Positions 15,606 to 49,117 of a stretch of 64,000 nt of DNA are shown one piece after another. The DNA is from Picochlorum sp. 'celeri' (Eukaryota > Chlorophyta > Trebouxiophyceae). The stretch lies in assembly GCA_010909725.1 (NCBI GenBank), contig JAACMV010000017.1, forward strand, positions 124,001-188,000, written 5' to 3'. The notes beneath the pieces are model-generated. The model did no database searches. It saw only the letters and a program-made list of their open reading frames with translations, and was not told the DNA's origin. Made by a program: the position numbers and the translations under genes. The number at the start of each line of letters is the position of its first letter. The stretch's first letter is position 1.

Positions 15606-18600
15606 TTAGTGTGCCGGATGAGAAACTTTTAGAATGTTTAGCCAGAAAAGCCATACGAGCATAAAGACTATGAATTCGCAGATTACAATCCAAGCAAGCC
15701 TTATCCGCGATCTATCCCGATGGTATTGGGTTTCGGACATCGTTCTCTTCTCTTGGGTCACGGATTCGGCCTCTGCTCCGATCCAAGAATGACGAGATGA
15801 CAAAATCGGGTTCTCATGTTCCAAGGCCTCCAGACAAGCTGCAGCGGCCTTTGAAGCAACCTGCAAATACTCTGATGCAACAAAATAGTGATTTGAGTCA
15901 ATCACAATGCGTTCAAATGAAGATTGGGTGTGTCGTGTCCACCCCTTCATGTAGCCTTTCGGAATGGTGTTGTCCTTGGCCCCGTCAAATGCCAAAATAG
16001 GACAGGAGAGCGGCGTATTCTCAACTGAGTACTCGTACTGTACAGCCATCATTATATCATTAATTGCCATCGGTGCGACGAGATCATATAAATCCTTGGA
16101 TTGCTTCATTTCCTCAATTCCAGCAAAATGTCCAGCCTCAAATGCATGCAAGACACTTTCTTTTGGGAGTGACCTCCAGTCACGTAGATGCGCGACGACT
16201 TCTTCTTTGATGACCCTAAAATTACCAAAAAGATAATTTCTCTTTGGATTGTAGATTTGCATGATAACGGATGCATATTTATCCGGGGGAGAAACTGCTG
16301 CTGGTATGAAAAGAAGCGGCATTTTTCTTCCGCATTTCTGCAGCCTTTGAATCATATCGTAACCAATAATAGCTCCAAGGCACGTTCCAAAAATTGCATA
16401 AGGCATCTCATCAAGAGGAAGTGTCTCAATTAGATGCTCAGACAAAGCTGGCAATGAATCTATGTGTTCTTCGTTCGATCGCCTTCCGCGGCCAGGGATC
16501 TGAACAGGATACACATCTATGCATGATGGGAAAATTTGGTTCCAGTGAGCAAACAGATTTTCGGCAACTCCGCCTGCCCAAGGTAGACAAAATAGCCTCA
16601 TTTTTGCCCGAGAAGCTGCCGCAGGCGCGTTTACTGCATTTTTTCCAGACTCAGCCAAAGTGTTGTGGACTCTGCCTCCATGATGAAGCAGCAAATCCAT
16701 CAGAGAAGCAGGAGTATGCGTGATCAACTCGTATGACTCGACTGTCGCAGTCCCCATCAAGTCATCAATCTTTGCTTTCAGGTCTAGCGATGATAGAGAT
16801 TCCAGACCTTGTTCACCCAGGGGCGTTGACGGGTCAGGGCGGTCGACTTGCAGAACAGATTGGAGAATGCGATCTATGGAACCTTGGTCAACTGATTTCC
16901 CTCTCAATGCATTGCTCTTGGCTTTTGATCCGATTTCTTCCAGGTTTGGCTCATATTCTATAACCGGAGTAATTGTTTGCAGTTCCTCGTAAATATCTTC
17001 TAGTTGATTAGATAAATTGGATCCAATGAGCATCTTGATATTTTTCCAATATGACTGTGTTGCAACCATGTGCACTGAAGCATTACCGAATCCGATCACC
17101 CACTGCAAGGCCGAGAGCCCATGGCCAACACTAAGCATACCCAGAGATTTGACTTCTTCATCCGATGCAGCAAATTTAGCAGCCATTCCTGCGATGAAAC
17201 AATTTTTTCTCGTTATTTGTGAAATTCAGTCTCAGCAATTTCCACATAGCACGTACCGATTGATCCCCATGCTCCCCATTGTGTTGATGTACATGGAAGA
17301 CCCTCGACTCGGAGCCTAATCGCGATATTGTCCATGGCGCTGTTCGCGGCGGAGTACGATGCATGATTCTTATTTCCTAATAAAGCGGATATCGAGGAGA
17401 AGAAGTTTGCACAAAGCGTTGGTCTTGTTCCACGAAACAGTTTCTCTATTGGCTCGAATTTGCCCGAATGCACCCGCCTGCTGATATTCGGTGCAGTGTG
17501 CGGCATGGTGGCAGCTTGTTGGCTACCCGACGTGTGCAGAAACACCATTGAGATTGGCATGTCCCTCCTGTAATTATCATGGTAGATGTCAGCGTCCGAT
17601 GATATTGAACCATCAATCTTTTCAATGCGAGTGAATCCTGTTCTGGTCAGCGCATCTCGTGCATGTCCATTGCTAACTCCACTCCTACTGAAGAGATAAA
17701 CATGGTTGGCAAATAAAGCCCTCCCCCAAGTTGCAGTCGCCATTCCCAGTGCCCCAGTTCCTCCTGATACTACCAAAGATGCATTGAAAAGTTGTATCTT
17801 GTCTTTTCTATTTGTTTGTACTGTCCTTTTCACCTTTTTCACGACAGGCAATGTCGAATCGGAAAGCATTTCTCTCTTGTTCTTCTCTGAACTCTGAATG
17901 AGGACATTGCTGCTGAATTTCTGAATCGAAACTGTTCCCATCTCCAGATAAACGTTATTCAAATACCCACTGACTATGCCATATTCTTTACCCAACCTTT
18001 TAGACAGTAGGGGCGTCACTGTATTGAAGTTACTCTCATTAACAATGTTTGAGATGATGAGGGATGATTTGGTTTTCGCTGATGCGATCGCTGAGAGTGC
18101 TTCTGCAAGAAGTTGCTCAATGTTTAAGACTGGCATTTGGAAGTTTGGCTTAAATGTTTTAGAGTTTCTCGGAATCTCATTGGCTGCATGGCTTGCACTG
18201 TTAACATAGGCCTCGTAGCAGTACAGGTTCTCAGGATGGTGCATCCCAGTCATTCGATGCATCAGTCCTTCAATTCGAGTCAATCTGCCTCGATCTTCAT
18301 CAAGAATAATTGAAGTTTTGGACGCCCTACAGAATTTGCCGTTGCGATCTTGGGGTAAATGTAGAGAAGCGACTCGAGCAGCGCAGTTATCCCCATTTCT
18401 TGACAATGTGCAGACTCCAAGCAGAGAGTACATCAACTAATAAGTCTGACTGAGAGCTAGACGTAGCAACCTGTGCACATGAGGTGTCTTCTTCAATCCA
18501 TAGGCTTACTAGAGTATTTGATCTATTAATATGCTGTTTTCTTTCAGAATTTCTCTGAACAATCCCAGGGGCCACTGTAGCTTCTGCTAGTGTTGCCTGC

Positions 18601-20450
18601 TCATTCACAAGCGAGCAAATTCCGTCCTGTGGGACAAACCGGGCTTTGAACGACCCTTTAAGACTCAATTTTATATTAAACGCGTTTATGTTGTGCAACA
18701 CAATATCGTGTTGATCGCTCCCTTTGTCCCCCCGCTCAGAAGAATAAAGTGATAATGCTACCGAAACCGCTGATTCAATGACGAATAAGATCCCACCATT
18801 CAATTGGGCCAATAAAGATCTCATTTCAACTGATTTTAGTTCACGCATTTCGTACAGAATTCCCTCTGTGTGAGTAATAGAGCTAACCTTCATCAAAACT
18901 AATGGTAAATGTTTGGCTTCAATCCTGTTGAAGAATTCCCAGACCTGAAAACAAGGAAAGTAAAAATATGTGATTTCTCAAGCATTTAGACACGAAAAAG
19001 TTAGAGAACATATACATCCTATATGTGGAACCTACATGGTGTATGTTGAGCCCGCGTTTTTGGTCAACTCTGAATTTGTGTATATGAGAGAACATTGCAT
19101 GAGCATTTATGCCGCTCATACCAAATGAACTAGTTCCAACCACTCCTGGATCCATTGATACTGCTGAATTTTCTCTGTTGATATGATGAGAACCGTCCGC
19201 TTCTGCCATAGATTGCGATATAAATGGATTCAATCCCCGGAGGTGCTGAACAGGTGGCTTGGTGAGGCATCCAAGTAGTGACAAACCACACAAAACTCCA
19301 TTCAGGCCAGCGTTGCCTTCAGCATGGCCAAGGAATGATTTACTAGCCAACATGCTCAATACAGAAGTCTTCGAAAAAACTCGTAGTAATGCGCTAACCT
19401 CGATGGGATCCCCTAAGGCAGTACCTGTCCCATGGGTAGAAACAGCAGTCACCTCGCTTGTGCTGATAGCTGCTTGATCGCAGGCTGATCTCAAAAGCTG
19501 GACTTGGGCAGAGCCGTTGGGCGATGTCAAACTGCTACTTCTTCCATCTTGATTCATGCAAATTGAGTCGACGTCTGCCACAATGGGTTTCTCGTCGATT
19601 GCGCCTCTCTCAATCAACTCCATCAGCAAAACAGTTGAGCCTTCGGCTCGGCCATAGCCATCAGCTTCTTGACTGAATGTTTGGCATCTACCCGTGAATG
19701 AAAGAGCTTTGAGATGACAAATAGCACTGAAAGTATCTGAATTGAGAATTAGGTTTACACCAGATGCGAAATTGGTACCAGAGCCTTGCGTCATTAAGGA
19801 GTTGCCAGACAAATGGCATGCGACAAGCGAAGAAGAGCACGCAGTGTCACTACAAATGGAAGGGCCTGCATGTCATAATAACAGAACAAATATATTTGAA
19901 TATGTTTTAATGTCCAGATTTAGAATTGCTGTGGAGAAAATATATGGCACAACTCACCATTGAGTCCAAACGTGTAAGACACCCGTCCTGCCATGTACGA
20001 AGACCCATTGCCAATTATCGCATGAGGTGGAGGTTTGGCGCCTCTCTGGGGCAAACTAGTGAGATATTCATGATACATACAACCTATATAGACACCGGTA
20101 GCGATAGAGGTGTCAGTCGCAAGTATCAAAGTGGCGTGCTCTTCCAAGAGAATTCTCACTTGAGGATCCAACCAACAAGCTTCCTGATGAGTTATTCGAA
20201 AGATCTCATGATCAAATTTGAAGACATCCTTGCAAAATGCGGCAAATCGTGTGTATGATAACCCGGAAGCAGTGGTAATCGGATCAAAACAACTCTCAAT
20301 GTCCCATCGCTCATACGGCACCTGTGCAATGGCATCCTTCTCGGGAAAAATGCTTCTTTTAGGATCTAAGCAATATCCTTCAGCCTCAGGGAGTTTCCCA
20401 GCAATTGACCTGATAACGATCGATTTCTCCCATAATGAGGGTGTTTCACG
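15606..20450 (-). other. PKS module 9 and release: KS9 - degenerate region - KR - ACP9 - thioesterase - TM anchor
   Basis: KS9 has its active Cys near 19,842, HGTGT and KSFLGHAEG. The following region, which carries the frame break, has no DH motif. KR has GGTGALG near 17,760 and ASYSAAN. ACP9 reads EQGLESLSSLDL near 16,798, with Glu for the usual Asp before the phosphopantetheine Ser. The thioesterase resembles stand-alone type II enzymes (LFCLPWAGGVAENLF, VQIPGRGRR), with a GTCLG nucleophile elbow at 16374-16388, Asp in FDGAKDN and His in SNHYFV. The last 30 residues include a hydrophobic helix (IRLAWIVICEFIVFMLVWLF). Confidence 0.75.
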
Positions 20451-23400
20451 TAAGTTCAAGGTCTTCGGGTCCATGATGGCTCCGTGCTCATTCAAAATGT
20501 GAGTGCTGATTGCTGAAATAGAGGGATGATCAAAGGCTACTGTTGGATTGACATCGATACATAGAGTCCGTGAAAGAGCATTCGCAAGCTCCATACTTCC
20601 TGTAAAAGTATTATAAATTATATCAAAAGTAAGGATAAACGTTTCTTCAAACGCATCGCAATTTTTTCTTTCAACGCACCAATAGAGTCCAATCCAGCCT
20701 CCATGAAACCCTGATCATCCTCTATTTTTTGGCCTAATATCCCTGCAACCACTCCTCTAACAGATTCCAGAATGAAAGAATATGAAAATTTATTCATTAC
20801 CGTTTTCGTCGATACGCGAACAGTGGGCGCCTCGACTGGACTATCGCGATCCAGATGAATTTCAGTAGGTTGCTGAACCAACGCCCCTACAACTGCATTG
20901 TTGAGACAGGCTTGAGAACCCATGATCGCCATTAGAATTTCAAGGCCCATTTGAGGATATATTATATCCATTCCTTGTTTCCTCATTGCATCTAAATGGC
21001 GTTTAGCCATGCCCACACTCCAGGGGCCCCACTCAACAGCCAAAAAGTCCAGTCCTTTATACCTGTTTTCCTCGCAAACTTCATTCAGGCACGCGTTCGC
21101 TGCACTGTAGTTTGTCTGGCCAATGTTGACAAATGAAGCAGCAATAGATGAAAATATAATTGTAGATTTCTGTGGAAGCATTCCATAAGCCTCGGTAAGG
21201 AATCGGAGACCATTTGATTTTGGTGCCACTACACTTCTCACGTGAAACGGTGCCAATCTGGACAATAGGGAATCATGAACGACTCCAGAGGAAAAAATGA
21301 CTGCCTTTGGTGCAGCATAATTTTGCTCAGATTCCTCGTGATTAGTCTGGTCTCTCTTCGATATTGAGTAGAACTCCAGTGATGAATGCTCTCCTCCGGC
21401 ATAACCACTCCGTCCGAACATGTGTATGCGCTTGAAGCATCCGCGGCCATTTTCAGAGATCCAAATACTGATTAGGGACCCTAATGCACCAGTGCCGCCG
21501 ACTATGTCCCATTCTATCGCAATCGTATTGGGCCTGGCTGCAGTTTCTATGAGCACTTCCTCTTTAAGGCGAGCTACACATCGAGCCATACCGATTTGCA
21601 CGTTGTCATGATCATCTTGGATCATGGAACGATTTAAATCCATGGGTTTCTTTGCAAAATCCTTCTGGTGATTGAAAAATGCGTTCACTCCTATTTCAGC
21701 GGCTGCAGACTTGATTAAGCTAATCTCAGGCAACGTTGAAGTTTGCGAGTTATAATGAGAAGATAAATTTCGAGATACTCTCCCCATTAATATGCACTCG
21801 TAGTTCTTCTCTTCCTTCATGATCTGCACTAAAGTCAATAGATCTGAAATTTCAGAAGAGCTTGATCTATCCAAGGAGTACTTTCGGCATATATCCTTTT
21901 TGCTCTGGAATACAACAGCCAAATCCTTGATGAAATCATCGCTTAACAGCCTACTACATGATTCTTTAACAGTGTACTCGATTTGGTAGAACTTTTTATC
22001 TGGCTCCGTGCACCTGTTGGAGTCGTTAGGTAAGCTTGATGGCCGGAACTGCATCCTCTGGATTTTGAATGGGTCTTGCCCTGTCGAAGTTGCCCTGTAG
22101 TCGCAGTGTACTGGATCCGATGCTTCCATGAAGTTTTGCGCATCTACAGCTCCGTGCACCCACTCAATACTGTTTAAATGTTTTGATACTAGACTAGCCT
22201 CTAATGCTGTGGGATATCGCAGAACTCCCGGTGACTTGGAAAACCCAGTGCATACCTGCAGAGAGCAGTCAATTTGCGGAGGCATGGACGCAAATCCTCC
22301 ATCTGTTATCTGTTGTGGAGCAATATATCCTATGCAAGATCTTGTAGTATAGTTGGGTTTGAATTCCGCTATTTGACGAGCAGCCAAGTTGACTTGTCTC
22401 CAGGGTTTGATGCGTGAGTTGTAGCCATATGAAATGGTGCATGAAAACGCTTTCTGGACCCCACCATTCTGTTTCGTTCGGATGGCAAGCGTTCCATCGT
22501 TGCTTATTTCAACAAATAATTGATTTTCAGTCAGTGGGCTCAAAATCGTGAACTGATGTGCGAGTGCATTCGTGATCCTAGCACTCTTCTCCTGGTACAG
22601 GAAAGCATAACAGTCGACTGATGCAACAAACAGTGACGCGAAGGGAAGAATAATTTCTGCATTGATCTGGTGTTGAGAGTGCATGCTCAAGGCATTGTCA
22701 GATATGCTGATCTGTATCTCTGTTCCTGCCGAACAGGACAAGGATTTGTAATGCTCGCTAACATGGGCAGGCAGGACCCACAGGCTAATGCGTTTGTAAA
22801 TGACTTGGCTCCGCAATTCTCTTTCCATCTTTCTACTCTGAATATTTGCAGATATAATTATGTTTGCATTTGTTCCCTGAAATGCAAATGCACTCACGCA
22901 TGCCGCAATATTCTGGCCTGTAATTGGATTTCCAGATCTCTCCCTGGTGACAAAAGGTGCAAGTCTGGAACCCAGGGAAACGTGGGGATTCAAGCTTTTC
23001 AAATACTGAATAGGTAAATTTTCAATTTTTGAAGATATATACTCAGCAGCAAGACAACCAATATGGCCTGATGCTGGCTCTGCGTGCCCAAAGTTCGTCT
23101 TCGATGCTGATATTGTCGGCAAGGAATATTTCTCAAACACACGTTGGAGAGCACCGATTTCAATTGGGTCCCCCAATGCTGTCCCGGTACCATGGAGGGT
23201 AGCATTGGATAAACCAGAGGGGCTCAATCCTGAATTTATGACGTTCGTGCGTATCAGGCTATGCTGAGCGGTGCCATTTGGCGCAGTCAAGGACGATGAT
23301 CTGCCATCCTGGTTTATGTTGATTGCAAGTATCACCGAGCAATTGGAACTGTGAGCAGTGCTCAGAACTGAAGCAATGCAAGCTTCAGATCTTCCATACC

Positions 23401-26400
23401 CATCAGCGCTTGAATCTAAAGCTTTGCATCTGCCATCCATTGCCAACATTCCGGATTTCTGAAGTGCCACTGTAGTGTCGCAAGATAATATCATGCTCAC
23501 AGAATCAGCGACAGATGCGACATTCTTTGTCTTGACATAGTCTACACATAGTGAAATTGCCACCAATGCTGACGAGCATGCCGTGTCAACACTCATGGAT
23601 GGTCCAGTGCACCCGAACATGTACGAAAGCCTTCCAGAAGCTACGCTTAGACTAGTACCAGTACTAGCATAGGAATTGCCTGCTCCATTCATATATCGCA
23701 TTATCAGTTGCTTATATTCCATATGCTGAATACCAACGTAGAATCCAGATTGTAAATTTGTATTGAATTGAGGCATGGACTGGATGCATCTGTAAGTGAT
23801 CTCTAGTAAGCGCCTGTGCTGAGGGTCCATGCACTGTCCCTCCATGGCAGACACCCTGAATAGCTCCGCATCAAATTGGTCAACGTGATTTAGCCATCCA
23901 GAGAACCGCACTAGCCCTCCCTGAAACAAATTTTAAACCCATAATCGAGCAGATGAAAATAGATTTCAATCATACATACATGGTATCGTACCTCGTATAC
24001 TTCTGAATCCCATCTGTTTGGGGGGACAATTTGTGCATAGTCACTGAAGATTGGATGTGGCTTGGGAGTATCGGCTTCATGAATCATACTCAACGAGCCG
24101 GGGCTAGGGTCTGCAATCATATCTAGTTGCTCCTTTTGGGGAATGATATGATCAGCATTAGGCGTTTGGCAAATGAAATTTACTATGGCATCCACAGATG
24201 GGTAGTCATATATTAATGTTGCTTCCAGCTGCATTCCTGTTTTGGAAGAAAGACTACGGGAAATTTCAACCGCAGTCAATGAGTCGATATCCTGAAAATT
24301 AATTTCTGGATCTTCGTTTTCTAAGGACGAAAGGATGACGTCACGGACTAATTCCTTCACCAGGGCTGGGGACTTTTGAACATATTCTACGGGTTCATAT
24401 CTCTCCTCATGCTGAGATGTAGCTCTGGTGCCGGAGCCATGGTCGAATTCATCCATTAGTCTCCATTGTCCTCTAAGCGAAAATGCCGACTTCAATAAAT
24501 TGAGATCGAATCTTAAATGCCCTGTAATGGGCGCGCATGACGCAAGGTATAGCCTCCAAATCTCCATGGAAGCAAATGGGCTGATCCCCATTGTCGCAAA
24601 GTGGTTTGCGTAATCCTTGGCAAGGCCTTCACTCAAAAATGGTCCCAATCGAAGGCTATAAGATTTCAGACCAAAATCATACCTGATACGAGATAAATGA
24701 TCAAGCATAGAGTTGGCACAGGAATAATATGCACCACCTATTTGACTCCAGATCGATGAAATAGAAGAAAGATATACTTCCGAACATGTCTGACGCCTCA
24801 GAGAGAAATCCACAGAGTTCACCTGCGGTTATTTTGAGATCCAGAAATATATTATCAGAATAACCATCCCTTTGACCATCAGGTGGGCGCATTACGTACC
24901 TTGTGCGAGACTATTTTCCGAAACGTGGTGGTATCCAGTCCACCAATGAGATCGTTTGCACTTATTCCAGTCGCGAAAACTCGCTGCTCAAAGTGAGGAA
25001 ATTCCTCCCTTAATTGTTCCTCCAGGCTGCCATTATCTATATGTAATGTAGAATCCGACAGAATAATCGATACAATAGAATTAACTTTGCGGAAAGCATG
25101 CACCCTATTTTCTGGCAGGTATCCTTTGCTTGAGGTCACCAACGTGTGCTGACATTCTAGCGACAGTACAGTGCTTTTGATATACTCAAATCCAATACCC
25201 TGAATTGTGTATAATATAAAATGAGAGATTATCTAGAATTCAGGAAAATAGAATCATATCATAGCACACAGTCCTTACCTTCGTTCCACCATACACTAGA
25301 ATGGATGTGGGAACTTTCGGAGCATGCCGAGGCTTGTGTCGTCCATTTTGTATCCTAAGTACATAGCACCTCTGGCCCTTCAGGAGGAATTCGTACTCTC
25401 CTGTGCATGTCAACAGATGTCTCAATGTTTCCAGTCCAAGTGCATGTGTGAGCCCTTCCGAGTTGACCAGCTTGATCGAAGGGGCAAACAGTTGTCTTGA
25501 CTCAAGGAATATTGTCTTTGATAGAGATAATGTCGCCTCATACTGTTTTATAGTCCTCTGATGCGGTTCATGGGGATGGCTTGGGATGATGGAGAGAGGT
25601 GAGACTGTCAGGCTCCTGTTCCAGTTTATTGACGTCATCATATCATATATTGATATCAGAACATCAGTATCCTGATCGCACTTCACACGTTTGCAAGAAA
25701 AGTCATTTGTCAGCAATAAATGCGCGATGTCGGAATGCATAAGGGCGCAAATCAGATGCTCAATACTGCTCAGCGACACGTCAAATAAATGAGCCTCGCT
25801 GGGTGCTACCCTTCCGATTCTAAGGCAATCGTTAAATGCTTCGACTTGGCATTTGGCACCTGCTAGAGCTTCAAGCATGAAGAGGCCGATCTTCCCTGAC
25901 TCATTATCACGCCGTTCCGCTTCAGTGACATTTTTTGGCTTCCATAGCTGAGTCATCAATTCATTTTTTATTTTACTGCCCGGTGCCTTATTGGAGGACT
26001 GACATGAAATACCAAGATTGATAGCGGTGTCAAGAGTTCTGCCTCCGGAATGGTGGCAGACACAACCCTCATGCATCGGTCTATCCCAATCCTCATTCCG
26101 GGCACCTTGAACTGATAAATGAGTGAATTCAGTGTCCTCGTGATTTGAAACTAGTAGTCTAAGTTCAATCAGAGACTGTATCGCAGTAGAATTGAGATTA
26201 GATCGATTGTGCTGAATAGTCGCAGTGCAGATATAATTCCTTTGAAAATTTGGGAAGTCAAAAACCTTCTTCCTGGGTTCCTTGAGAATATCCATAGAAT
26301 TTTGGGCCATTGCAATTGTGAACTCGAACGACTTTTGTGTTGATGAAGAAAAGGTCAATAAACCATCTGACATCGACAATGATACGCAGATCCTCGGCCA

Positions 26401-38400: not shown

Positions 38401-41400
38401 AGGAAGTATGGAACAGAACCCACAAGTCTAAAGGTTCTCTTCCATTCCATTTTGAAAATAGGAACCGATGATATATATAAAATGTTCGCGTTCAGAAGCA
38501 CGGATTTTAAACAATCTACAGCTTCCGAAGGCTCAAGAAATACAACCCCAGACCTGCTGGCTGCCTTACGCACAGCCTGCGTAGATGCCATTCCTTGTGA
38601 CCAGGCGCCCCATTGAATCGACAAAGCGAGAATGCCTGTGGATCGGCATTCGCTCGAAAAGGCATCTAGAGCTCCATTAGCTGCACAATAATTGAGCTGA
38701 CCCGCGGATCCGATCAAGGAGGCAATCGAAGAGAACAAGATGCATTTTTGCAACGGCAGGATACCTGTAGCACCTCGAAGGGATACCTTTGGTGCTAGAA
38801 CTTGGCGTATGCTCGACATATCTTGTGATTCAATAGCAGAATCTTTGGTTATACCTGCAGAATGAACTACACCAGTGATTGTCCTTCCATAGGAGTTTTC
38901 AATAATCAGATCCCAGTCCTCTCTAAATGTCAAATCACATCCCAGGTGGGTAACTTCGCTTGAAGTTTCTGACAAATGCCCAAGTCTTTTAGGCTTTCTA
39001 TTTATCAACTTTATCGTTTTCATCCCATACGAGATCAGAAAATCTGTTGCTACGACTCCAAGGTCGCCTGCTCCCCCTGTAATCAGCCAGGGGTTGGCTG
39101 ATTCTTCCCTCAGGGGTTTGGCATTTTTAATCATCAATTTCCCTACATGATTCGTATTGGAATATGCTTTCATCGCTGTTTTCACTGAAGAAATATAATA
39201 CTGGGTGTAATGCGGAGGTCGAACTCGCTGTTTTGCGAACAAAGTCCCTACTTCCTTGAGCAGGTTATGAATCGTGCCCGGGCTTGCGTAATCAAGCGCC
39301 ACTGTGTGCATCAAGACATCTGGCCTTTCTTGTGACATTCGGTGGCAACTCCAGATATTTCTTTTCCCCACTTCCAGAAAGGAGCCTGAGAAAGCCATGA
39401 CAGCGGCTGACGCAGCAACCATTCCAGGGGACGTCAAGGAATTTATGACTCTGTCTACTTCTGATACTGATAAGGATACATCATCCACGAAAGTGGTCTT
39501 TCTCGAGTCTCCCAGCGAGCGGCATCGGTAATTTTTCCTGACTACATGCCTCTTGTGACATGAACTTGCAGTAACAAACGGAGTACAATTTGCTGACTGC
39601 GCCACTTCCAATAGAGCCATTCCAAGAGCCCCCGACCCTGCGTGTACCAAGATGCGGTCTCCTCTTTTAACACCCTGAATGCACATCAAAGCCGTGCAAT
39701 AGACCGTTGGCAGAGTGCATGCCTCGTCCAGTGACAGGGACCCAGGTACTTTGAGCAACATCTCTGGATGGCTTATGCCAACATGTCCACCCAAGCAGCC
39801 AGGTACAAATCCAAACACTCTGTCTCCTTGCTTCAGACCTGATTTTGAGCCAGACATAATCACACCTGAACAGTCAGATGCAATAGGCTGTGGATTTCCT
39901 GGATATAGGCCCATAGCATTTAATACATCTCGAAAATTCAAGCCAACAGCATGAACACGCAGCGTTAAATCGGTATCACTCTTGTCTGAAGAGGGGTAGA
40001 AGTGCATATCAGTACTGGATCTTTGCAAAGTGAAAGACGATGGGATACTATCGTCCAAACTTTTTTCTAGCCTCGAATCAATTATGACAGAAGCAGATAT
40101 ATGCCTTCCAAATTGACCAAACCGCTTTGAATCCTCACTATGGACTTTATGCGTAGATGTATCGCTCGTAAACGTCATACACACATCTATTTCTCTCTCA
40201 GTTGCAACCGCCTTTAGCATACCATGCAGAGCTCCACTCTTCAAGTTGATTTCATTAGCTCTATACGGATACTCCATTGCCATTGAGTGCTTCACTTCGC
40301 TGAAATAAAAACCCTTTCCTAACTGTAGTATTGATTTAATCTGCTGCAGTTTTGCCCCCAGATATTCAGGTATGCTGCGTGTCGCATCACTAGCCAGGCT
40401 GACTGCTCCTGTGCGGTCACCACCGACAGGGGCGGAAACCTCTTCCTTAACGCAGTAATTGAAATTATGTTCTTGGAGACCCGCAGAAGGGTCGTATCTG
40501 CGATAAAACGGTTTTAGCGTCACTTCATTCATTGTCAACTGACTAATCAATTCAGCTTTTAACTTCATGCTCGAAGCTGAAGCCAAGGCGTGCATCTCGC
40601 GACAGTTTGATGGACGTCGCCTGGCATGGACGCCCATGAAAGAAGTTAGTACCGCAAGATTTGTTTCTCCAAACCTGAAAATAGACAATGCTGATGCGGT
40701 ATGCATGGCGCTATCTGCATAGAAGGGATCTATAGAGTGCGATTGCCTAGCTGAGTTGGCGGACGATATTCTGGCAATATTTGCGGTGGCAATTTCTTCT
40801 TTCTTCATGTCATAGATGCAAGAGACGAATATCAATGAACAAAAATTCATATGCTGTCGTTTTGTAGGATATCGAGACATCCGCAGCGGTAGAACCTCGG
40901 AGGTGTCGGAGGAACAGCGCTGTCCTGTTCCTGAAAACATATTTAATCGTCCCTGCACTAGACTGAAGGAACATTGGATGTCCAAGTCAGCCACAGAGCT
41001 CAAAAGAAGCGGTGACGTAATAACGGCTGATATTGCAGACTTTCTTTGCTTGTTATCCTCTAGACCCAAGTCAATGCAGCTAGAGCAAATATCCAGAAAC
41101 CCTGTCCCAGGAAATATTGGCTGTCCTCGCACTGTATGCTGGTATAAATCGGGTACTTTTGAAAGCGAGATTTGGAACACGACAACATCGGTAGATATCG
41201 ACAATACTTTTCTTGTTAATGTTCTGTGGATCGCCGGAAGCCAGTATTGGTCTCTAACAAAAGGAAGACGCCTAGAATTAAAGGGTCCGCCTCTACCTGC
41301 CTGGCAAGAGAACACAGCGTGTGCGTTGACGCCGCTCATTCCGAAAGAGCTCGTGGAGGCAAAGCCAGTCTCAGTTGCAATGCTACCAGAAAGTTCCCTT

Positions 41401-44400
41401 GGGAACGACTGCGACCCAGCACTGTCATTTCCCCCTTCATTCTTTAACAGTTTTGAGATGTGAGGGTTTAGGCCGATTAAATGTGTTATGGGTGCAACGG
41501 ACATTCCTTTCAAGTGGGACAACGCCAGTATACCTCCAGCAAGTCCTGCGCTCCCCTCAGTATGCCCAACCATCGACTTGGAGGACAGAATATATTTTGG
41601 AGGAGTGTGTTCAACCCCATAGCCCTTCATGATTGCGCCAACTTCAATGGGGTCTCCCAAAGATGTCCCAGTTCCATGAGATGAGATGGATGAAATATCA
41701 CCTCCTTGAAGTGATGCTTCGCGAAGAGTTTGTCTAATAAGAGCCGCCTGCGAAAGGCCATTTGGAGCAGTTAATCCACTTGATCTACCCGAGTGATTGA
41801 ATGAAGTTCCACGAATAATGCCTATGCTGCTATTGCTTGGTTTCTTGTCTCTGCCAAGAGCCATTGTAGTAACCCCTTCACCTCTACCGTAGCCATTGGC
41901 TACGGAAGAGAAGGCTTTGCACCTTCCATCTGGGGAAAGCGCATTGAGTTGACCTATTGCATTCATTGTATCCGAGAATGTTATCGTAAAAACCCCTGCA
42001 ACCACTGAGCTCTGACAGTCCTGATCCTGAAGTGCTCTCCTCCCCAAGTGCATTGCGACAAGCGATGAAGAGCAAGCAGTATGCGTCGACACACAGGGTC
42101 CAACAAGGGAGAAAGAGTACGAAATCCTCCCTATGAGAAAGTCCATTCCATTTCCTGTTGTTATTGATGGCTGGATTGGAACTCCCTCTCGGGAAAGATA
42201 CTGTATGTATTCCATGTGCATGACACCAACGAACCTGCAAGGCAATACATCGAGACTCAATCGCAACACCAGATGAACGCCAATCATCAATATCACTCTC
42301 TTACAATCCTGTGGAATTTCTCGAGGATGAATTCCAGTCAGTTTCGACCAGGACGCCCAAGGTCTCTTCGAGCAAAAGCCTCCCCTGGGGATCTAGTCCT
42401 TTGGCTTCGGAAGGTGCAATTTTGAACATCTCTGGATCGAATGCTTCCAGATTTTCAAAGTACCGTCCCATATAGTACGAATTGCCACCTAAATAGGGAG
42501 ATGCACTTAGTTGATTGATACACGCTGTCTTCGAAGGTGATACAAGAGAGTATGCACATACCTTCAAAAAGGTGCATCCTTTGTTCCATGTCCCACCGGT
42601 TCAGCGGGACAGTCCTCACATTATCAACTTCTGATGGTGAGGCACAAGCAAATTTGTACAAAGTTCGCATCGCATTGTTAGGGAAAGAGTATGATACAGA
42701 GAGTATTTCGGTGTTCACCATGTCCTCCAAGCTTTCCCCAGGAACCAATGGAATTATGCCAACACCATTAGGTTCCGGAGCGAAACTAGATGCAATTCCA
42801 TCTGCTAAAGCACGTGCATCTGCATAGTCAAAAAATTGTGATACAGGTATATCAAAATCAAACCTTGCACGAATCTTTTCAGACAATGCCTGTAAACTCA
42901 TCGAGTCCAGTCCGGCCGAGAACATAGGTTGATCTGGGGCGATGCTCAATCCCAAGGACTCTATGATGTCTTGTAGCTCTTGTAGAACTTCAAACGCTGT
43001 CATCACTTTTTTTCTGGGTTTGGGTACACCATCATGGATGGGCTGTTTCTCAATCACAATTCTCAAGATGTCTGGGATTGTCTGCATCGAACTACCAATC
43101 TTTATCCAATCAAAAGTGTTGATCATCAATGTTGAGGCCCTCGGGCCTTCTTTGATATCATTTGCTATTGCAAGTAAGAGATTGTTCATCTCATCAAGCG
43201 CATTGTCGGGCTGTATCAGGGCTAGCCCCATCTGAGACATTTTCTGTACGAACCCCTTGTCCTCAGCTGCCATACCCCTTCCTCCCCAATTGCCCCACTG
43301 AACAGCAATGCTTGGGATTCCGATCATACTTCCATAATCTCCCCATTCATCTAGTGCCCCATTGGCGGCAGCATATACTGACTGTCCGTGCACACCACTG
43401 AAAGCAGCGATGGACGAGAACATCTGCAACGCATCAATTGGCAGAGCAGTGGACAATCCATAGATTATGCTAGCTCCCGTCACTTTACCTGCAAAAACAT
43501 TTCGAATACTTTGAACAGTTATATTTGGAATTAATTTGGAGTCTAACTGCCCTCCAGCATGCATTACACCTGTCACTGGGCTATCCCTGGAAGCATAAAA
43601 AACCCCAGCAAGATCTTCTCTCTTGGACGAATCGGCCATTGACAAAACGATTCTAGAACAGAACAGTTCGTGCATGAAATTAAACTTTTCGGAAGGCTTA
43701 AATTTTCCAGTTCTTCCTAGGAAAACTCCTGAACTAAGGTTGAAGACGGCTATCCATAGGGAGATCAGACTTCCTATGGCTCCCATTCCACCGGTTACCA
43801 CAAGTTCTTGACGAGGCCTCAGAAACTCTTTGGCTCGATGTGAATAGAACATATCAGTGTTTGGGACCAGTACAGGGTGCTTGATACAATTCCCTTCGAT
43901 CCAAGACTCGAATTTAGTCCCGTTTGCATTATGCTGGTATCCTTTTTGACTTTTGGCTTGGCCTATCTGAGATGAAATGTACCCTGCTGTATCGGGAGCC
44001 TCATTGCGCAGCACGCGTAGGAAAGACTGGAACTCTCTCGACGGTCCGATCATTTTAAATCCATGTAGATAAAACGAACATGCGTTGGCCTGTGCGAAAA
44101 TAGGCAGGGAAAAGGACAAGCCTTCCAATTTTTTGCCAGTTTTCTGCCAAGCCACCTGGAGAGCTTCGCTTAACCAGGAAGTTGCGCTCTGCTCTGACTC
44201 AGGACGCCTCTTGATCTGAAATCCTGTCTCAAACTGTAAAGTCAAATTCTGGAATCTATGACTACCAACTTTTTGATGACTATCGGGTAGTTCTGTCTGA
44301 TATGATATGGAGTAGCGGTCTGTCAACCGACCTTCGATTTGCCTCTCCTGCACCAATTCTTTGGACTCTAAATCCGATATTTTGTGGTCTAACATATTTT

Positions 44401-47400
44401 TTGAGTTTTGTTTTATTCCCCAGTGATCTGTGTGGATTATGTGTTTGCCAAACGTCTTGAATACAGATGCATACATTGCTTGAGATTTTGGTTCGTCATT
44501 GAGCATCAACCTCTTCACTGATACAACAGCTCTTGGCCTCTGAGTAGCTCCTTTGGTATATGATGTGGCTGGTCCTAGATGAATTGAGCAGTCTAAAGAT
44601 GCAGGATAACGCTCAGAGTTTTCACAGATGATTTGTCCGAAGCTAGCTCTGTGGGGTTGCAACCATGCATCTCTGATTTGTAGAGCGCTCTCAATTTTTG
44701 AAAGTCTGCCTTCTTCTGGCCTTTGCTCTCGAATTATTGCGTTCACTTTAGATGAATAGTGGTTGATTCTCTGGATTTGGTTCAGAGAGGAGAGATGGAC
44801 CAATCCGGACGATACATTAATTTCAAACCTCAACAACAGAAAGGCCTCCAGCAGCACTGGATTCATAATCACGGCATCCCCAAGCACAAGGCGGGAACTG
44901 GCAGCACTTAAAATAGATGCAATAAAATCTTTGGATAGAGAAAACATTCCTGAACCTGGCATTATAGAGCGTGATCCGACAACATGGTCCCACATGTACG
45001 AGTCCTCAGGCCTTAACATGCTTTCCACTACCGTCGTGGATCGCTGAGGGGTATATCCTCCAAAAACGAAGCGATTGGTTAGTACCACGGGCCAATTGAT
45101 TTTTCTATAAAGTAAAGTATCGGTACCCGGAAGCATACTCTCCTCTATGCCTTCCAGTGCGATGCAGGTATTGGTTCCACTCATTCCGTAGGAACTCACA
45201 GTGCTGATGTTGACATTTCTGCAAAGACTGCCTCCAGATTGTCTTTGAGGCAGAAATTTCTTCCCTCGATGGTTGAAAATATTTTGAATAAATGGGTTCA
45301 AATGCCTCAATGAGTGGAATCGAAGATTGCGGAGTTGCAAAATTGATGAGAGTGCCCCCGCGATTCCATGAGCACCAGCAGTTCCCTCCGTATGTCCAAT
45401 TGCAGATTTCAGCGAGACTACACATCAGGAAGAATTCAACGAAGTTGACTAACATGTATACATATATTCAGCACATATGACATACCCAGATATTTGACTG
45501 AGGCTATCGAGTCGTACACCGTGTCAAGTGCCCCGATCTCAATTGGGTCACCTAAGGCAGTCCCGGTTCCATGCAGGTTGATGGACAAAATATCGTCTCT
45601 AGCCACCATCGACTCTTGTAAAATCTTGAATATCAATGAAGCTTGAGAAGGTCCATTGGGGGCGGTAAGAGAACTGCTTCTTCCGTCTTGATTGCACTCG
45701 CATCCTTTGATATACCCAATAATGTCCGATGGGTGACTCTCTGCATTTCCGACCACGATGGCAACACAGCCCTCCCCTCTGCCGTAACCATCAGCCGTGG
45801 AGTCTAAAGTCTTGCATCTTCCGCTCACAGAAAGTGAGCCTAAGACCGCCAGATTTAGCGTCGTCGTGGGAAGAAGCATGAGATTTGTTCCTCCGGACAC
45901 GCCATGCCCAATCGTCCCACGACGCAATCCATTGATTGCCAGGTATACTGCAACAAGCGACGAAGAACAGGCTGTGTCGATCCCAATACATGGTCCCTTG
46001 AAGTTAAATGTGTAAGGAATTATTCCGGATGCGAAGTTCAATCCACTGCCTGTTAGATGAGCCAGGTCTGGTGCAAGAACAGTATTTCTCAGAAACCCGG
46101 GAAACTCATTCCAGACACAGCCGACATATGTTCCAACAGAAGAGATAGATGAATTTAGCGAAATAGTCCTTTTGATTGCAAGTAAGGTTGATTCGAGCAT
46201 TAATTTTGACTGAGGGTCAAGCCACAGTGAGTCCCGTGCAGAGATCTTCAGGCTTTCACTGTCAAAGCAATCAATGTGCTGTATCCAGCAGCCATGGGTC
46301 AGCAGGCTTTCACTATTCGCTATTTTTGACACATGCTCCTCAGAAATATGAAATCTGTCTACCGGAGCTCTGTTCGTATGCTCTTTATCATCCGCAAGGA
46401 ACGCGAGTATACCCGGCTCGAGAAGAGGTCCAGGGCTCCTCGAGTAACCACCAGACGTACCCTCAACGCTTAATATTGTAAAACCTGAGGATGAGGCAGC
46501 TGGATGAATTAATAGACTTTTATCATTCGTAAACGTGCCAATTTGTCTTAACTTTTGGACTATAAATCCAGTGAGCGAAGCCACATCAGCGTAATCAAAT
46601 GCTATTGTGTCTGGCAGTTGCAGGCTGAAAGCATCCTGCAGTGCCTGCTTGAGCTCGATTGACGTAATCGAGTCCAGACCAATGTCAGCAAAGTAGAGGT
46701 CTGATATATTACCATCAACTTCCAGAACGTTATGAATTGTCTTCTCCACAATATTTTGTACCTCTTCGTCACTGAAAGCAACATTGTCATTGTGCTCAAA
46801 ATTCTGATCATACACATCAGATTCCTTCACGTGCGATGCTATACGTCCGCTTTCAAGATATTGTATGCTGTGAATAGATGTTCCAAATCCCAAGTAAAGG
46901 TCTTTCTTCGTGCGGGAGCATGTGGTTCTCCTCATGGGGGCGGCTGCATCTGAATGGTTCAGCATATCTGATAACAGCGTCCTGGTTGCATCAACCGATG
47001 CAGACAAACCCCTCGATTGGAGTGAGACTTCAGAAAAGAGTTCTTTCCACATGTCCGAGCCAATACATATGCCTATTGGATCCAAATCGAGGAGATCTGG
47101 GCGAGAAAAGTTTTTTGATGGAATCATCAATCCTTGCCATCTATCGTGGCACTCACACCTGCTGCTGCTCTGTGTCAAATGTTTCCCAATACATCCAGCA
47201 GCCACAACTTCCGCATTTACTAGGCTGTCTGATTTAGTCTCCATTAAAAACGATGGATGTATACAGCTGAACTTGGCGCAGATTTCAGTGTTCAACGCGC
47301 CTGATACACTGCCTAGAACAAGGTCCAACAGAGAGGTTTTGATCTGCAGAGCGTGGGTGCAGATCTTGGAGGCAAGGCATGCGAGTAAGACAGAAGGCAA

Positions 47401-49117
47401 CGTGGGCGTGCTATGAATCGATTGACTCAGAATCCAAGATGAATTTGAATCGATTCTTCCAATGAAAGCCAGATTTCCATTTCCTGTTGTTGGCTGCATG
47501 GAAACGCGCGCAAATATGCTGATGTGCAATGCCATCCACCAGCATGGCTCCATTTTCCAAGCGGGGCCAATGCCCTTTCGTTGTTCCCCGTCTAAGCTTT
47601 CATGAATTCTTTCCACAATAATATGGGAATTTGTTCCCTGAAACGCGAATGAACTGATAGATGCTGCCGAAACGCTGTTGTGCACAGCAGAAAAGCAGCC
47701 TGGGCTTCTGAGAAAGCCAAAGACAGCCTTTTGATTCGGTCTCGCTTCCAGCACCCTGATCACATACGGGTTTATCTGAACAAGATTCTTGAAGTCAAGT
47801 CCAATATTAAACTGCAACCGCTCCATTGCATGGAACAGCCCGACCGCACCAGCTGCAGGCTCGGCGTGCAGTACGGTGGCCTTTGCTGCCTGTACTTCAA
47901 GGGTCATGTCCTTGGCAAAAACGGAGGTCGCAGCACCAATTTCGATAGGATCACCTAGTGCAGTTCCTGTACCATGCATTTCAAGAATTTCAATTCCCTC
48001 AGGCATAACTTTCCCAGCAATTAGGGCGCCCCTAATGACTTCTTGCTGCGCTGGGCCATTTGGAGCAGTGAGACTTGAACTTCTACCATCTTGCCCAACA
48101 GCAGTTCCTGAGATATATACACTTGAACTGCTGCCCTTAGTATCTCTCTTTTTCATCAAGTGCACAATGCAGCTCTCAGCTCTACCATATCCATCTGCTC
48201 TGCCATCCAAAGTCTTACATCTTCCATCAGCTGAGAGCATGCTGGCTGCTTTCAGAACCCACGAAGTCTCGTGACTGATAAGTAGATTTACCCCAGAAGC
48301 AATTGAGAAATTCCAACCTCGAGACATTGAGCTAGTGATAGACAAGTGTATTCCAACCAATGATGAGGAACACGCTGTATCAATGCTTGAGGATGGTCCT
48401 CTCAAATTGAATGTGTAGGACACCCTCCCAGACAAGACACTGAGCGTTCCGGATGTCGCCATAAGGGCATTCTTCTCCAGATGTAGCAGATTCAAGAAAT
48501 ATTCATTATATGACACGCCCACTGTTATCGAACAGGATGAAGGGTCGAGTAGACCCTGGGCATCGTGCAGGCATGCTCCAACTGACTGCAGCAATAATCT
48601 TTGTTGTGGATCCATATACGAAGCCTCTTTCCTGCTAATACCGAACGCATCTTTATCAAACAAATAAATATCGCTAATAAACGCTCCAAAGCGCTGTGGC
48701 ATGGTGTTTCCTGATATGCGTTCAGCAAACGCAATATCCCATCGTTGGAGTGGTACCTGAACACTCATCACCCAGTCCATTAACATATTCGTGGATGCAA
48801 ACAACCAAACCATCACCGTACCATATTGCAAAAGTCACCATCTATGGAAAAGGGTTTTTGCCACTCAGATGATAGAATCTCGGCCTTGATATGCGAATCA
48901 TGGGAAGGTATATTTGGAGACATGCAAATCGGCATCTGCAGGAATGGTACGTTGATCAATACACGATCATACAACAAAGAAACATCATGGGACATACATC
49001 ATACAAGGACTCATCATCAGACGAATAGATTTCTGCGTATTCTTCCGGCAAAAGGCGAAAACCGACCGCTTTTGAAGTGCCCGACTCCCCGTGAATGTCC
49101 AGCTCGCGGTTTTCCAT
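15606..49117 (-). CDS. Giant nine-module AT-less (trans-AT) type I polyketide synthase
   Basis: This is a single minus-strand gene reconstructed in 17 exons: 49117-48998, 48935-48822, 48756-45486, 45417-42562, 42488-42305, 42234-36861, 36771-34838, 34764-31683, 31596-27702, 27635-25279, 25199-24900, 24822-23992, 23920-20680, 20599-19958, 19865-19036, 18944-17257, 17188-15606. All phases agree, and the total is a multiple of three once one extra base at 18391-18394 is discounted, giving about 10,770 residues (over 1 MDa). It carries nine KS domains with intact Cys (TACSS), HGTGT and second-His motifs, seven KRs, three clear DHs, one ER and nine ACPs, then a thioesterase and a C-terminal transmembrane segment. 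No AT domain (GHSxG with flanking motifs) was found between any KS and the next domain, so extender units must be supplied in trans. It could be split into several genes, but every internal boundary is an ordinary 62-92 nt intron in mid-domain. Product unknown. Confidence 0.9.
20450..24150 (-). other. PKS module 8: KS8 - atypical DH - KR - ACP8
   Basis: KS8 reads TACSSA (near 23,583) with HGTGT and KTNFGHAEP. The DH-like stretch keeps His but has Ala for the motif Gly (HQINAEIILP), and a second-motif Asp is present (PPQIDCSLQV). KR has GGTGALG near 21,494 and TNYSAAN. ACP8 (GLDSIG joined to SMELAN across the intron at 20600-20679) is intact. Confidence 0.7.
24150..28080 (-). other. PKS module 7: KS7 - degenerate region - KR - ACP7
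   Basis: KS7 (active Cys near 27,475) contains a 66-nt in-frame intron at 27636-27701; its removal joins REVLTSNDLG to NFIGCMNFDYS. No DH motif is recognisable in the long region after KS7. The KR spans introns at 25200-25278 and 24823-24899: GGTKGIG, then LSSISSIW and YYSCAN. ACP7 is unusual, reading FQDIDSLTAVEI near 24,280, with Ile in place of the Leu/Val before DSL, but the Ser is kept. Confidence 0.7.
28080..31850 (-). other. PKS module 6: KS6 - DH - KR - ACP6
   Basis: KS6 has its active Cys near 31,205, HGTGTELGDP and KSILGHTEG. DH is well conserved: HNVQGRSLVPG near 30,244 and HPAELDTHFH as second motif. KR has GGTDGIG near 29,045 and SNYASAN. ACP6 has GLDSLTAIEL near 28,217. Expected outcome: alpha,beta-double bond. 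Confidence 0.75.
31850..34230 (-). other. PKS module 5: KS5 - atypical DH - ACP5 (no KR)
   Basis: KS5 reads TACSSA at its active site (near 33,783) with HGTGT and KSIHGHLEP. The DH-like stretch keeps the His but has Asp in place of the motif Gly (HFVRDKIVFP). No Rossmann GGxGxxG follows before ACP5 (GVDSLVSLDI near 32,000). This makes module 5 short, like module 1. Expected outcome is an unreduced keto group, unless the DH-like domain acts on a previously formed substrate. Confidence 0.7.
34230..38050 (-). other. PKS module 4: KS4 - degenerate region - KR - ACP4
   Basis: KS4 has its active Cys near 37,570, HGTGT and KTDYGHCET, and ends across the intron at 36772-36860 (SSFAFQ joined to GTNAHT). 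The DH position lacks a recognisable HxxxGxxxxP. KR has GGTRGLG near 35,353; the Tyr motif reads HYAAAS, with Ser replacing the usual Asn. ACP4 has GLDSLTVVEV near 34,405. Expected outcome: beta-hydroxyl. Confidence 0.7.
38050..42720 (-). other. PKS module 3: KS3 - DH - ER - KR - ACP3 (fully reducing)
   Basis: KS3 is assembled across two introns (42489-42561 and 42235-42304); its active Cys is near 42,075 and the preceding residues read STHTACSSS, with His in place of the usual Asp. DH has HTVRGQPIFPG near 41,123. The ER is the medium-chain-reductase type: VGLNFRDVLNAMGLYPG near 39,930 and a cofactor loop around HAGSGALGMAL. KR has GGAGDLG near 39,070 with SS...NYCAAN. ACP3 has GVDSLGLVEL near 38,215. 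This is the only module with the full reductive set. Confidence 0.75.
42720..46500 (-). other. PKS module 2: KS2 - DH - KR - ACP2
   Basis: KS2 (active Cys near 45,970) spans the intron at 45418-45485, joining KYL to VSLKSAIGHTEG. DH has HVVGSRSIMPG at about 44,975 plus a second-motif Asp (YPASLDCSIHL). KR has GGMGAIG near 43,787 and the Ser/Tyr/Asn triad (FSSIAAF, VYAAAN). ACP2 has GLDSMSLQAL near 42,905. The expected outcome is an alpha,beta-double bond. Boundaries are approximate. Confidence 0.75.
46500..49117 (-). other. PKS module 1: KS1 - degenerate DH-like region - ACP1
   Basis: The protein starts only about 78 residues before the KS1 motif VPLQRWD, with no adenylating or ACP loading domain. 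KS1 is intact (active Cys near 48,370; HGTGT; second His in VLHAEPAAG). A dehydratase-like region follows in which the HxxxGxxxxP motif is not recognisable. There is no KR. ACP1 has GLDSITSIEL near 46,675, with the phosphopantetheine Ser present. Boundaries are approximate. This module probably accepts or decarboxylates the starter. Confidence 0.7.

Follow-up and report, generated by a model that had tools for sequence, protein, structure and literature searches.

Multimodular type I polyketide synthases (PKSs) of green algae are reportedly encoded by nuclear genes, with many modules and no in-line AT, and the trans-AT-type algal enzymes share these three features with a PKS encoded in a 64,000-nucleotide stretch of Picochlorum sp. 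'celeri' DNA (contig C17, positions 124001-188000; hereafter the window) within an assembly of 27.4 Mb and 30 contigs. We know of no thioesterase (TE) with a Cys nucleophile, no tail helix and no KS gate-loop classes among those algal systems. Bacterial trans-AT PKSs likewise share with the window PKS a relationship in KS sequence, the lack of an in-line AT and the possession of stand-alone AT genes, but differ in that the algal KSs stand apart from 28 bacterial KSs (of unchecked type) and that one AT candidate of the alga carries ankyrin repeats. As a giant modular PKS specified by a single gene, the window PKS is also like PKZILLA and other giant algal PKSs. An AT-less multimodular algal PKS is of a known kind, and several details of this one look new. 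What makes it interesting is not that an AT is missing, but the small number of loaders and assembly lines, the KS classes, the tail and, in a paralogue on contig C1, a Nup98-type domain. As an explanation of the locus as a whole, we think it very likely that this is a nuclear-encoded, AT-less nine-module type I PKS, and we propose that it is loaded in trans and releases its product at a membrane by means of a TE and a terminal helix.

The gene and its nine modules

The coordinates in Table 1 follow a model consistent with contig C8, which is taken to carry the second haplotype, and the locus would be expected to act as one gene giving one transcript. Nine KS, nine ACP, seven KR and one ER domains were recognized (locally built HMMs; Pfam). 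As in other modular type I PKSs, the KSs and ACPs lie in one spliced frame, which is unbroken in C8; the initial annotation had counted the same nine KSs and nine ACPs in one 33.5-kb coding unit, and the HMM counts agree with it, as does the frame of 10,793 aa open in C8. Modules 1-5 have the order KS-ACP, KS-DH-KR-ACP, KS-DH-ER-KR-ACP, KS-KR-ACP and KS-DH-ACP, and modules 6-9 the order KS-DH-KR-ACP, KS-KR-ACP, KS-DH-KR-ACP and KS-KR-ACP-TE-helix. The order that had been read for modules 1-3 is therefore correct, with DH calls that are weaker than was claimed. A local DH profile recovered three of the five DHs, and those weakly, so the DH His motif was used instead: it occurs in modules 2, 3, 5, 6 and 8 and is missing from 1, 4, 7 and 9. 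With Pfam, only the DH of module 5 exceeded the cut-off (PKS_DH_N, 29.0 bits vs 27), modules 2, 3 and 6 reaching 18.0, 22.7 and 19.3 bits, and the DH-like region of module 8 is recognized solely by its His motif.

The catalytic Cys, the His of HGTGT and the second His are present in all nine KSs, and among PDB matches to KS5 (E<=1e-30) bacterial PKS chains lead, including PksL and three entries named 'AT-less polyketide synthase'. KR domains are missing from modules 1 and 5; the KR Tyr was found by eye in seven of seven, the KR of module 4 having Ser at the usual Asn position. ACP9 scores 17.9 bits against a Pfam cut-off of 20.8, and has ESL in place of DSL. Identity with a PUFA synthase is not indicated by the PfaA model, which gave 125 and 141 bits on two exons (cut-off 1010); nor was the in-line AT of such a synthase found in the 13 exons searched for it (see below).

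The matched KS1 core is preceded by 78 residues. Upstream on this strand, the next frame terminates at about 49490, and the PKS has its ATG at 49117, which leaves no space for a loading domain before KS1. All 10 neighbouring frames assigned with Pfam belong to housekeeping or general cellular families (SacI-type phosphatase, FGAR amidotransferase, RETICULATA-related, aldose epimerase, Vps18, SBDS, P5C reductase, protein kinase, kelch and tubulin-tyrosine ligase), so that over these 10 frames a biosynthetic gene cluster is not indicated; a RETICULATA-related protein is consistent with the plant lineage. PADLOC, run on one PKS exon, returned nothing.

Table 1. Positions of the PKS gene, its exons and domains, and of two features on other contigs (window numbering unless a contig is named)
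Feature	Position	Strand	Remarks
AT-less nine-module type I PKS gene	49117-15606	minus	spliced frame, one coding unit
PKS exons 1-6 of 16	49117-48998, 48935-48822, 48756-45486, 45417-42562, 42488-42305, 42234-36861	minus	C8-consistent model
PKS exons 7-11 of 16	36771-34838, 34764-31683, 31596-25279, 25199-24900, 24822-23980	minus	C8-consistent model
PKS exons 12-16 of 16	23920-20680, 20599-19958, 19865-19036, 18944-17257, 17188-15606	minus	C8-consistent model
Module 1	46546-48756	minus	KS1 core 47485-48756, ACP1 46546-46764; without KR, without DH His
Module 2	42779-46368	minus	KS2 45029-46368, DH His motif 44957-44986, KR 43280-43810, ACP2 42779-42991
Module 3	38091-42610	minus	KS3 41184-42610, DH His motif 41109-41138, ER 39114-39977, KR 38595-39095, ACP3 38091-38306
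Module 4	34281-37940	minus	KS4 36622-37940, region without DH His, KR 34861-35376, ACP4 34281-34499
Module 5	31881-34151	minus	KS5 32886-34151, DH His motif 32811-32840, ACP5 31881-32096; without KR
Module 6	28093-31694	minus	KS6 30316-31694, DH His motif 30229-30258, KR 28567-29070, ACP6 28093-28308
Module 7	24157-27930	minus	KS7 26593-27930, without DH His, KR 24631-25308, ACP7 24157-24375
Module 8	20484-24027	minus	KS8 22718-24027, DH-like His motif 22643-22672, KR 21014-21517, ACP8 20484-20773
Module 9	16740-20321	minus	KS9 18870-20321, without DH His, KR 17261-17782, ACP9 16740-16889
Thioesterase, RifR-like	15867-16622	minus	GTCLG, Cys codon 16380-16382
Hydrophobic 23-residue stretch, candidate tail anchor	15630-15698	minus	hydropathy
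Doubtful 'intron 15' (18509-18437), with the length difference of 2 nt between haplotypes beside it (18430/18429)	18429-18509	minus	
Ankyrin-AT fusion, candidate loader for the genome's AT-less PKSs	C3:1172746-1174365		
End of the C1 PKS with Nup98-type autopeptidase S59 domain	C1:103213-104532, also on C21		Pfam Nucleoporin2, 71.9 bits; same open frame as last KR and ACP

Proposed loading in trans and release of the product

How might such a PKS be loaded? Of the 17 PKS exons, 13 were searched with Acyl_transf_1 (PF00698), namely all but the short exons 1, 2, 5 and 10 of <=100 codons each, and none gave a match at E<=5; a six-frame search of the whole genome gave no AT match at the window PKS, its allele or any other PKS locus. 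The PKS_AT match that had been set beforehand as the result refuting an AT-less PKS was thus sought at both levels and was absent. In all five DH modules, moreover, the DH His stands 59-64 residues past the KS end motif, leaving no room there for an in-line AT, which would occupy several hundred residues. Across the genome, Acyl_transf_1 matched two genes only, each on two contigs taken as haplotypes. One (C7/C24) is spliced and was read by eye as FabD-like; the other (C3/C23) specifies about 539 residues, with ankyrin repeats in its N-terminal part and an AT in its C-terminal part (E 7.6e-25). PPTase-family matches were found at C4/C30 and, weakly, at C20. For the stand-alone AT encoded elsewhere that had been postulated there are two candidates, and the suggested search for a PPTase also yielded matches. 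Given the lack of an AT in the ORF, the two stand-alone AT genes, the PPTase-family matches and a dN/dS of 0.35 between haplotypes (see below), the sequence data support well the idea that the nine-module PKS is served in trans; either the ankyrin-AT or the FabD-like protein may be the one that serves it. There is, for one alga, a countable set of four AT-less multimodular PKS loci per haplotype, with two candidate loading genes found, and with so small an inventory the assignment of AT to assembly line becomes testable by gene removal.

In the biosynthesis that we propose, a stand-alone malonyl transferase (the ankyrin-AT of C3/C23 or the FabD-like protein of C7/C24) would charge the ACPs in trans, and KS1 would accept a reduced acyl starter supplied from outside, as suggested by the lack of a loading domain before KS1 and by the class of KS1, which in C17 and C1 follows reduced-carbon modules. 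Nine condensations would add about 18 carbons, the beta positions predicted from modules 1-9 being keto, alkene, methylene, hydroxyl, keto (DH without KR), alkene, hydroxyl, alkene and hydroxyl. The TE, with its Cys nucleophile, would then free the chain at whatever membrane holds the C-terminal helix.

The best PDB match of the TE is RifR, and, as in RifR-type thioesterase II, the alignment covers the nucleophile elbow as well as the regions of the Asp and the His. It differs from such enzymes in being fused to the C-terminus of a PKS, in having Cys for Ser at the elbow (GTCLG vs GHSMG in RifR) and in the hydrophobic helix that comes after it. Cys thioesterases are known in some beta-lactone-forming systems; ObiF1 was the weakest of the 14 PDB matches to the TE. 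The hydrophobic stretch (residues 10764-10786 of 10793, with seven residues after it) contains the 19-residue window with the highest hydropathy anywhere in the protein and has the character of a tail anchor, a single terminal helix, whereas in the PKS proteins of C1, C4 and C3 the top hydropathy window is not at the C-terminus. The helix is accordingly described here as tail-anchor-like and as a candidate membrane anchor. Tail and Cys thioesterase together suggest where and how the product leaves.

Ketosynthase classes and the other PKS loci

In a tree of 26 KSs (one haplotype set, comprising KSs that cover >330 of 424 positions, fragments being dropped), one branch with support 100/99 parts a class A of nine from a class B of 17; good support is limited to four of the 23 inner branches, and long end branches are numerous. 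In C17 and C1 the classes can be told apart, with no exceptions, at nine alignment columns, the gate loop included (a count with no chance control). The gate loops there are FGM[SGT]G in class A (with one YGMSG) and FA[FS]QG in class B; the final KS of C3 and that of C4, both of class B, have FGAQG in place of FA[FS]QG. When the 28 bacterial KSs (cis-AT or trans-AT type unchecked; hand-picked from 80 fetched loci) were added, and one of the near-identical C3/C4 KSs was omitted, the bacterial sequences formed their own clade apart from the algal ones, class A had support 99 and class B 89, and class B was drawn apart from class A. None of the 28 carries either loop.

In bacterial trans-AT PKSs, the type of a KS tracks the incoming chain. 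The rule examined for the alga places class A after modules that leave a keto or alkene, and class B after those that leave a hydroxyl or a saturated carbon. It was devised while viewing C17, on a tree that already displayed C1, C3 and C4, and with this history 13 of 13 internal KSs in C17 and C1 fit it (Fisher p 0.0008), against five of nine in C4 and C3 (p 1.0); for all 22 KSs pooled, p is 0.0075. The nearest thing to independent support is C1, where five of five fit, and the C4/C3 result speaks against generality. In this scoring, KR-less modules counted as keto and only KSs with a preceding module were included; three DH motifs that escaped the pattern (C1 module 6; C4 modules 3 and 6) were read by eye; the module preceding the first main-frame KS of C4 was assessed through C3, using the KS there of 98.8% identity and the module that belongs to it; and two KSs without HGTGT, both misfits, were retained among the nine of C4 and C3. 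We offer only tentatively, and with the odds somewhat against it, the idea that the gate loop is a readable code (FGM[SGT]G of class A for a keto or alkene beta carbon, FA[FS]QG of class B for a reduced one), coupled with release of the product at a membrane by a tail-anchored Cys TE. If the code were true, the products of eukaryotic trans-AT lines, and the feeding of one protein by another, could be read from KS sequence; the two KS classes in any case give a falsifiable prediction of chain structure.

Such feeding bears on the paralogue at C1/C21, modelled (at penalty -18) as 13 exons and 7,854 aa, weaker penalties giving 17 and 28 exons that extend into the upstream gene. The protein has an N-terminal ACP and six KSs, and its last exon, from which a TE is absent, ends in KR, ACP and a Nup98-type domain. 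Might the window PKS be the second half of a two-protein line, with the C1/C21 PKS passing its chain to KS1? The ends are complementary (an ACP start and no TE in the one, a KS start and a TE end in the other), and both genes are intron-rich, but they lie on different contigs, and the last module of C1 has a KR and a DH (the latter by eye; 13 bits with the local profile, which is weak), predicting a class-A acceptor where KS1 is class B. Because of the class of KS1, a plain hand-off from C1 to C17 is downgraded to an unlikely arrangement, and we prefer a nine-module line that starts from an externally supplied acyl group.

The Nup98-type domain of the C1 PKS, which is found on both C1 and C21, might be a docking domain. 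Its aligned position for what we take to be the catalytic His is occupied by Cys, and the chain stops three residues past what is presumably the usual cleavage point; the ordinary Nup98 is taken to be a stronger Nucleoporin2 match elsewhere in the genome (156.6 bits). A non-LTR retrotransposon-like frame (C1:131656-135459, by eye from the translation) is situated upstream of the C1 PKS.

At C4:312171-343499, an uninterrupted frame of 10,443 codons contains a PKS piece with seven KSs and DH-ER-KR modules, a tandem ACP pair at its start and another inside, and three thioesterase stretches near its end. Near-identical PKS pieces occur at C4:349464-356126 and C3:967007-980956, with KS pairs 98.8% and 77.8% identical, pointing to exchange or duplication between the contigs. 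The last KSs of C4 (main frame residues 8638-9067) and of C3 (3188-3613) lack HGTGT and have the gate loop SSFGAQGTN; they are perhaps not ordinary condensing KSs. Read-through of the in-frame TAGs in C3 and C4 KSs was considered and rejected: the frames hold about 23 extra codons (by eye), as a short intron would.

Haplotypes and the frame of module 9

The C8 stretch is 99.1% identical to the window over 50 kb. An earlier 17-exon model of the PKS gene was reproduced, with 16 GT-AG introns of 59-92 nt, no internal stops and a product of 10,768 aa (CDS of 32,307 nt including the stop). When the introns and codons of this same gene were used to train a splice-aware model, the exons came out identical at penalty -12, and at -18 the two small ones at the start of the gene were lost; a run with an overly permissive intron penalty (71 exons) was rejected, as were subsequent ones that omitted part of KS9. 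The initial annotation had splice phases compatible at all 16 introns, a claim that fails at intron 15. With leave-one-out splice profiles, in which intron 15 was always outside the training set, its score of -0.7 bits (acceptor -3.5 bits) was the last of 28, the next lowest being 5.0; the 28 were introns of the window PKS and the C1 paralogue, those of C1 being predictions of a model that had learned from the C17 introns, intron 15 among them. With the intron left unspliced, C8 has an open frame all the way from 18944 to 17257. Directly after it, the haplotypes differ by 2 nt in length, which shifts the frame of the window copy and is the sole exonic length difference between them. The 25 codons removed by the intron show, in C8, exon-like usage (LLR 2.75; median 3.19 for exon windows, and 0.37 for out-of-frame open windows, with a 95th percentile of 3.81), which favours, without proving, their coding status. 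From the lowest splice score, the open C8 frame and the way in which the 2-nt difference is hidden, intron 15 is very probably an artefact. Most probably, then, 15 introns divide the gene into 16 exons, the C8 frame runs for 10,793 aa with no internal stop, and module 9 of the window copy contains, ahead of KR9-ACP9-TE, either a true frame shift or a mistake of assembly. The case illustrates how a gene model made by eye can mask a frame shift with an invented intron.

If the frame shift were real, the window haplotype would lose KR9, ACP9, the TE and the helix, and the gene might be decaying, its function on the way to being lost. Such decay seems to us improbable. In its favour are the broken frame of the window haplotype and the distribution of changes, with 41.5 nonsynonymous and 31.5 synonymous (dN/dS 0.39) after codon 7500, about the last 30% of the protein, and 17 and 18 (0.29) before it. 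Against this, C8 is open over 10,793 codons, the KS catalytic residues are intact in nine of nine, and no second length difference has arisen in the exons. The haplotypes differ at 108 of 32,380 exonic and 14 of 1,132 intronic sites, and 58.5 nonsynonymous against 49.5 synonymous changes in about 10,790 codons give an overall dN/dS of 0.35, which speaks for constraint on the PKS protein.

Still less probable is a real intron 15, with the window haplotype intact and C8 the shifted copy: it has GT..AG ends and a compatible phase, and 25 stop-free codons could occur by chance with a probability that we estimate at about 0.3, so that the open C8 frame alone is no proof, but the poor acceptor, the last place in splice score and the exon-like codons all oppose it. 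The reading that we retain is of a constrained gene, its frame intact in C8; a dN/dS of 0.84 obtained from an earlier allele protein was discarded, that protein having been scrambled by the frame shift.
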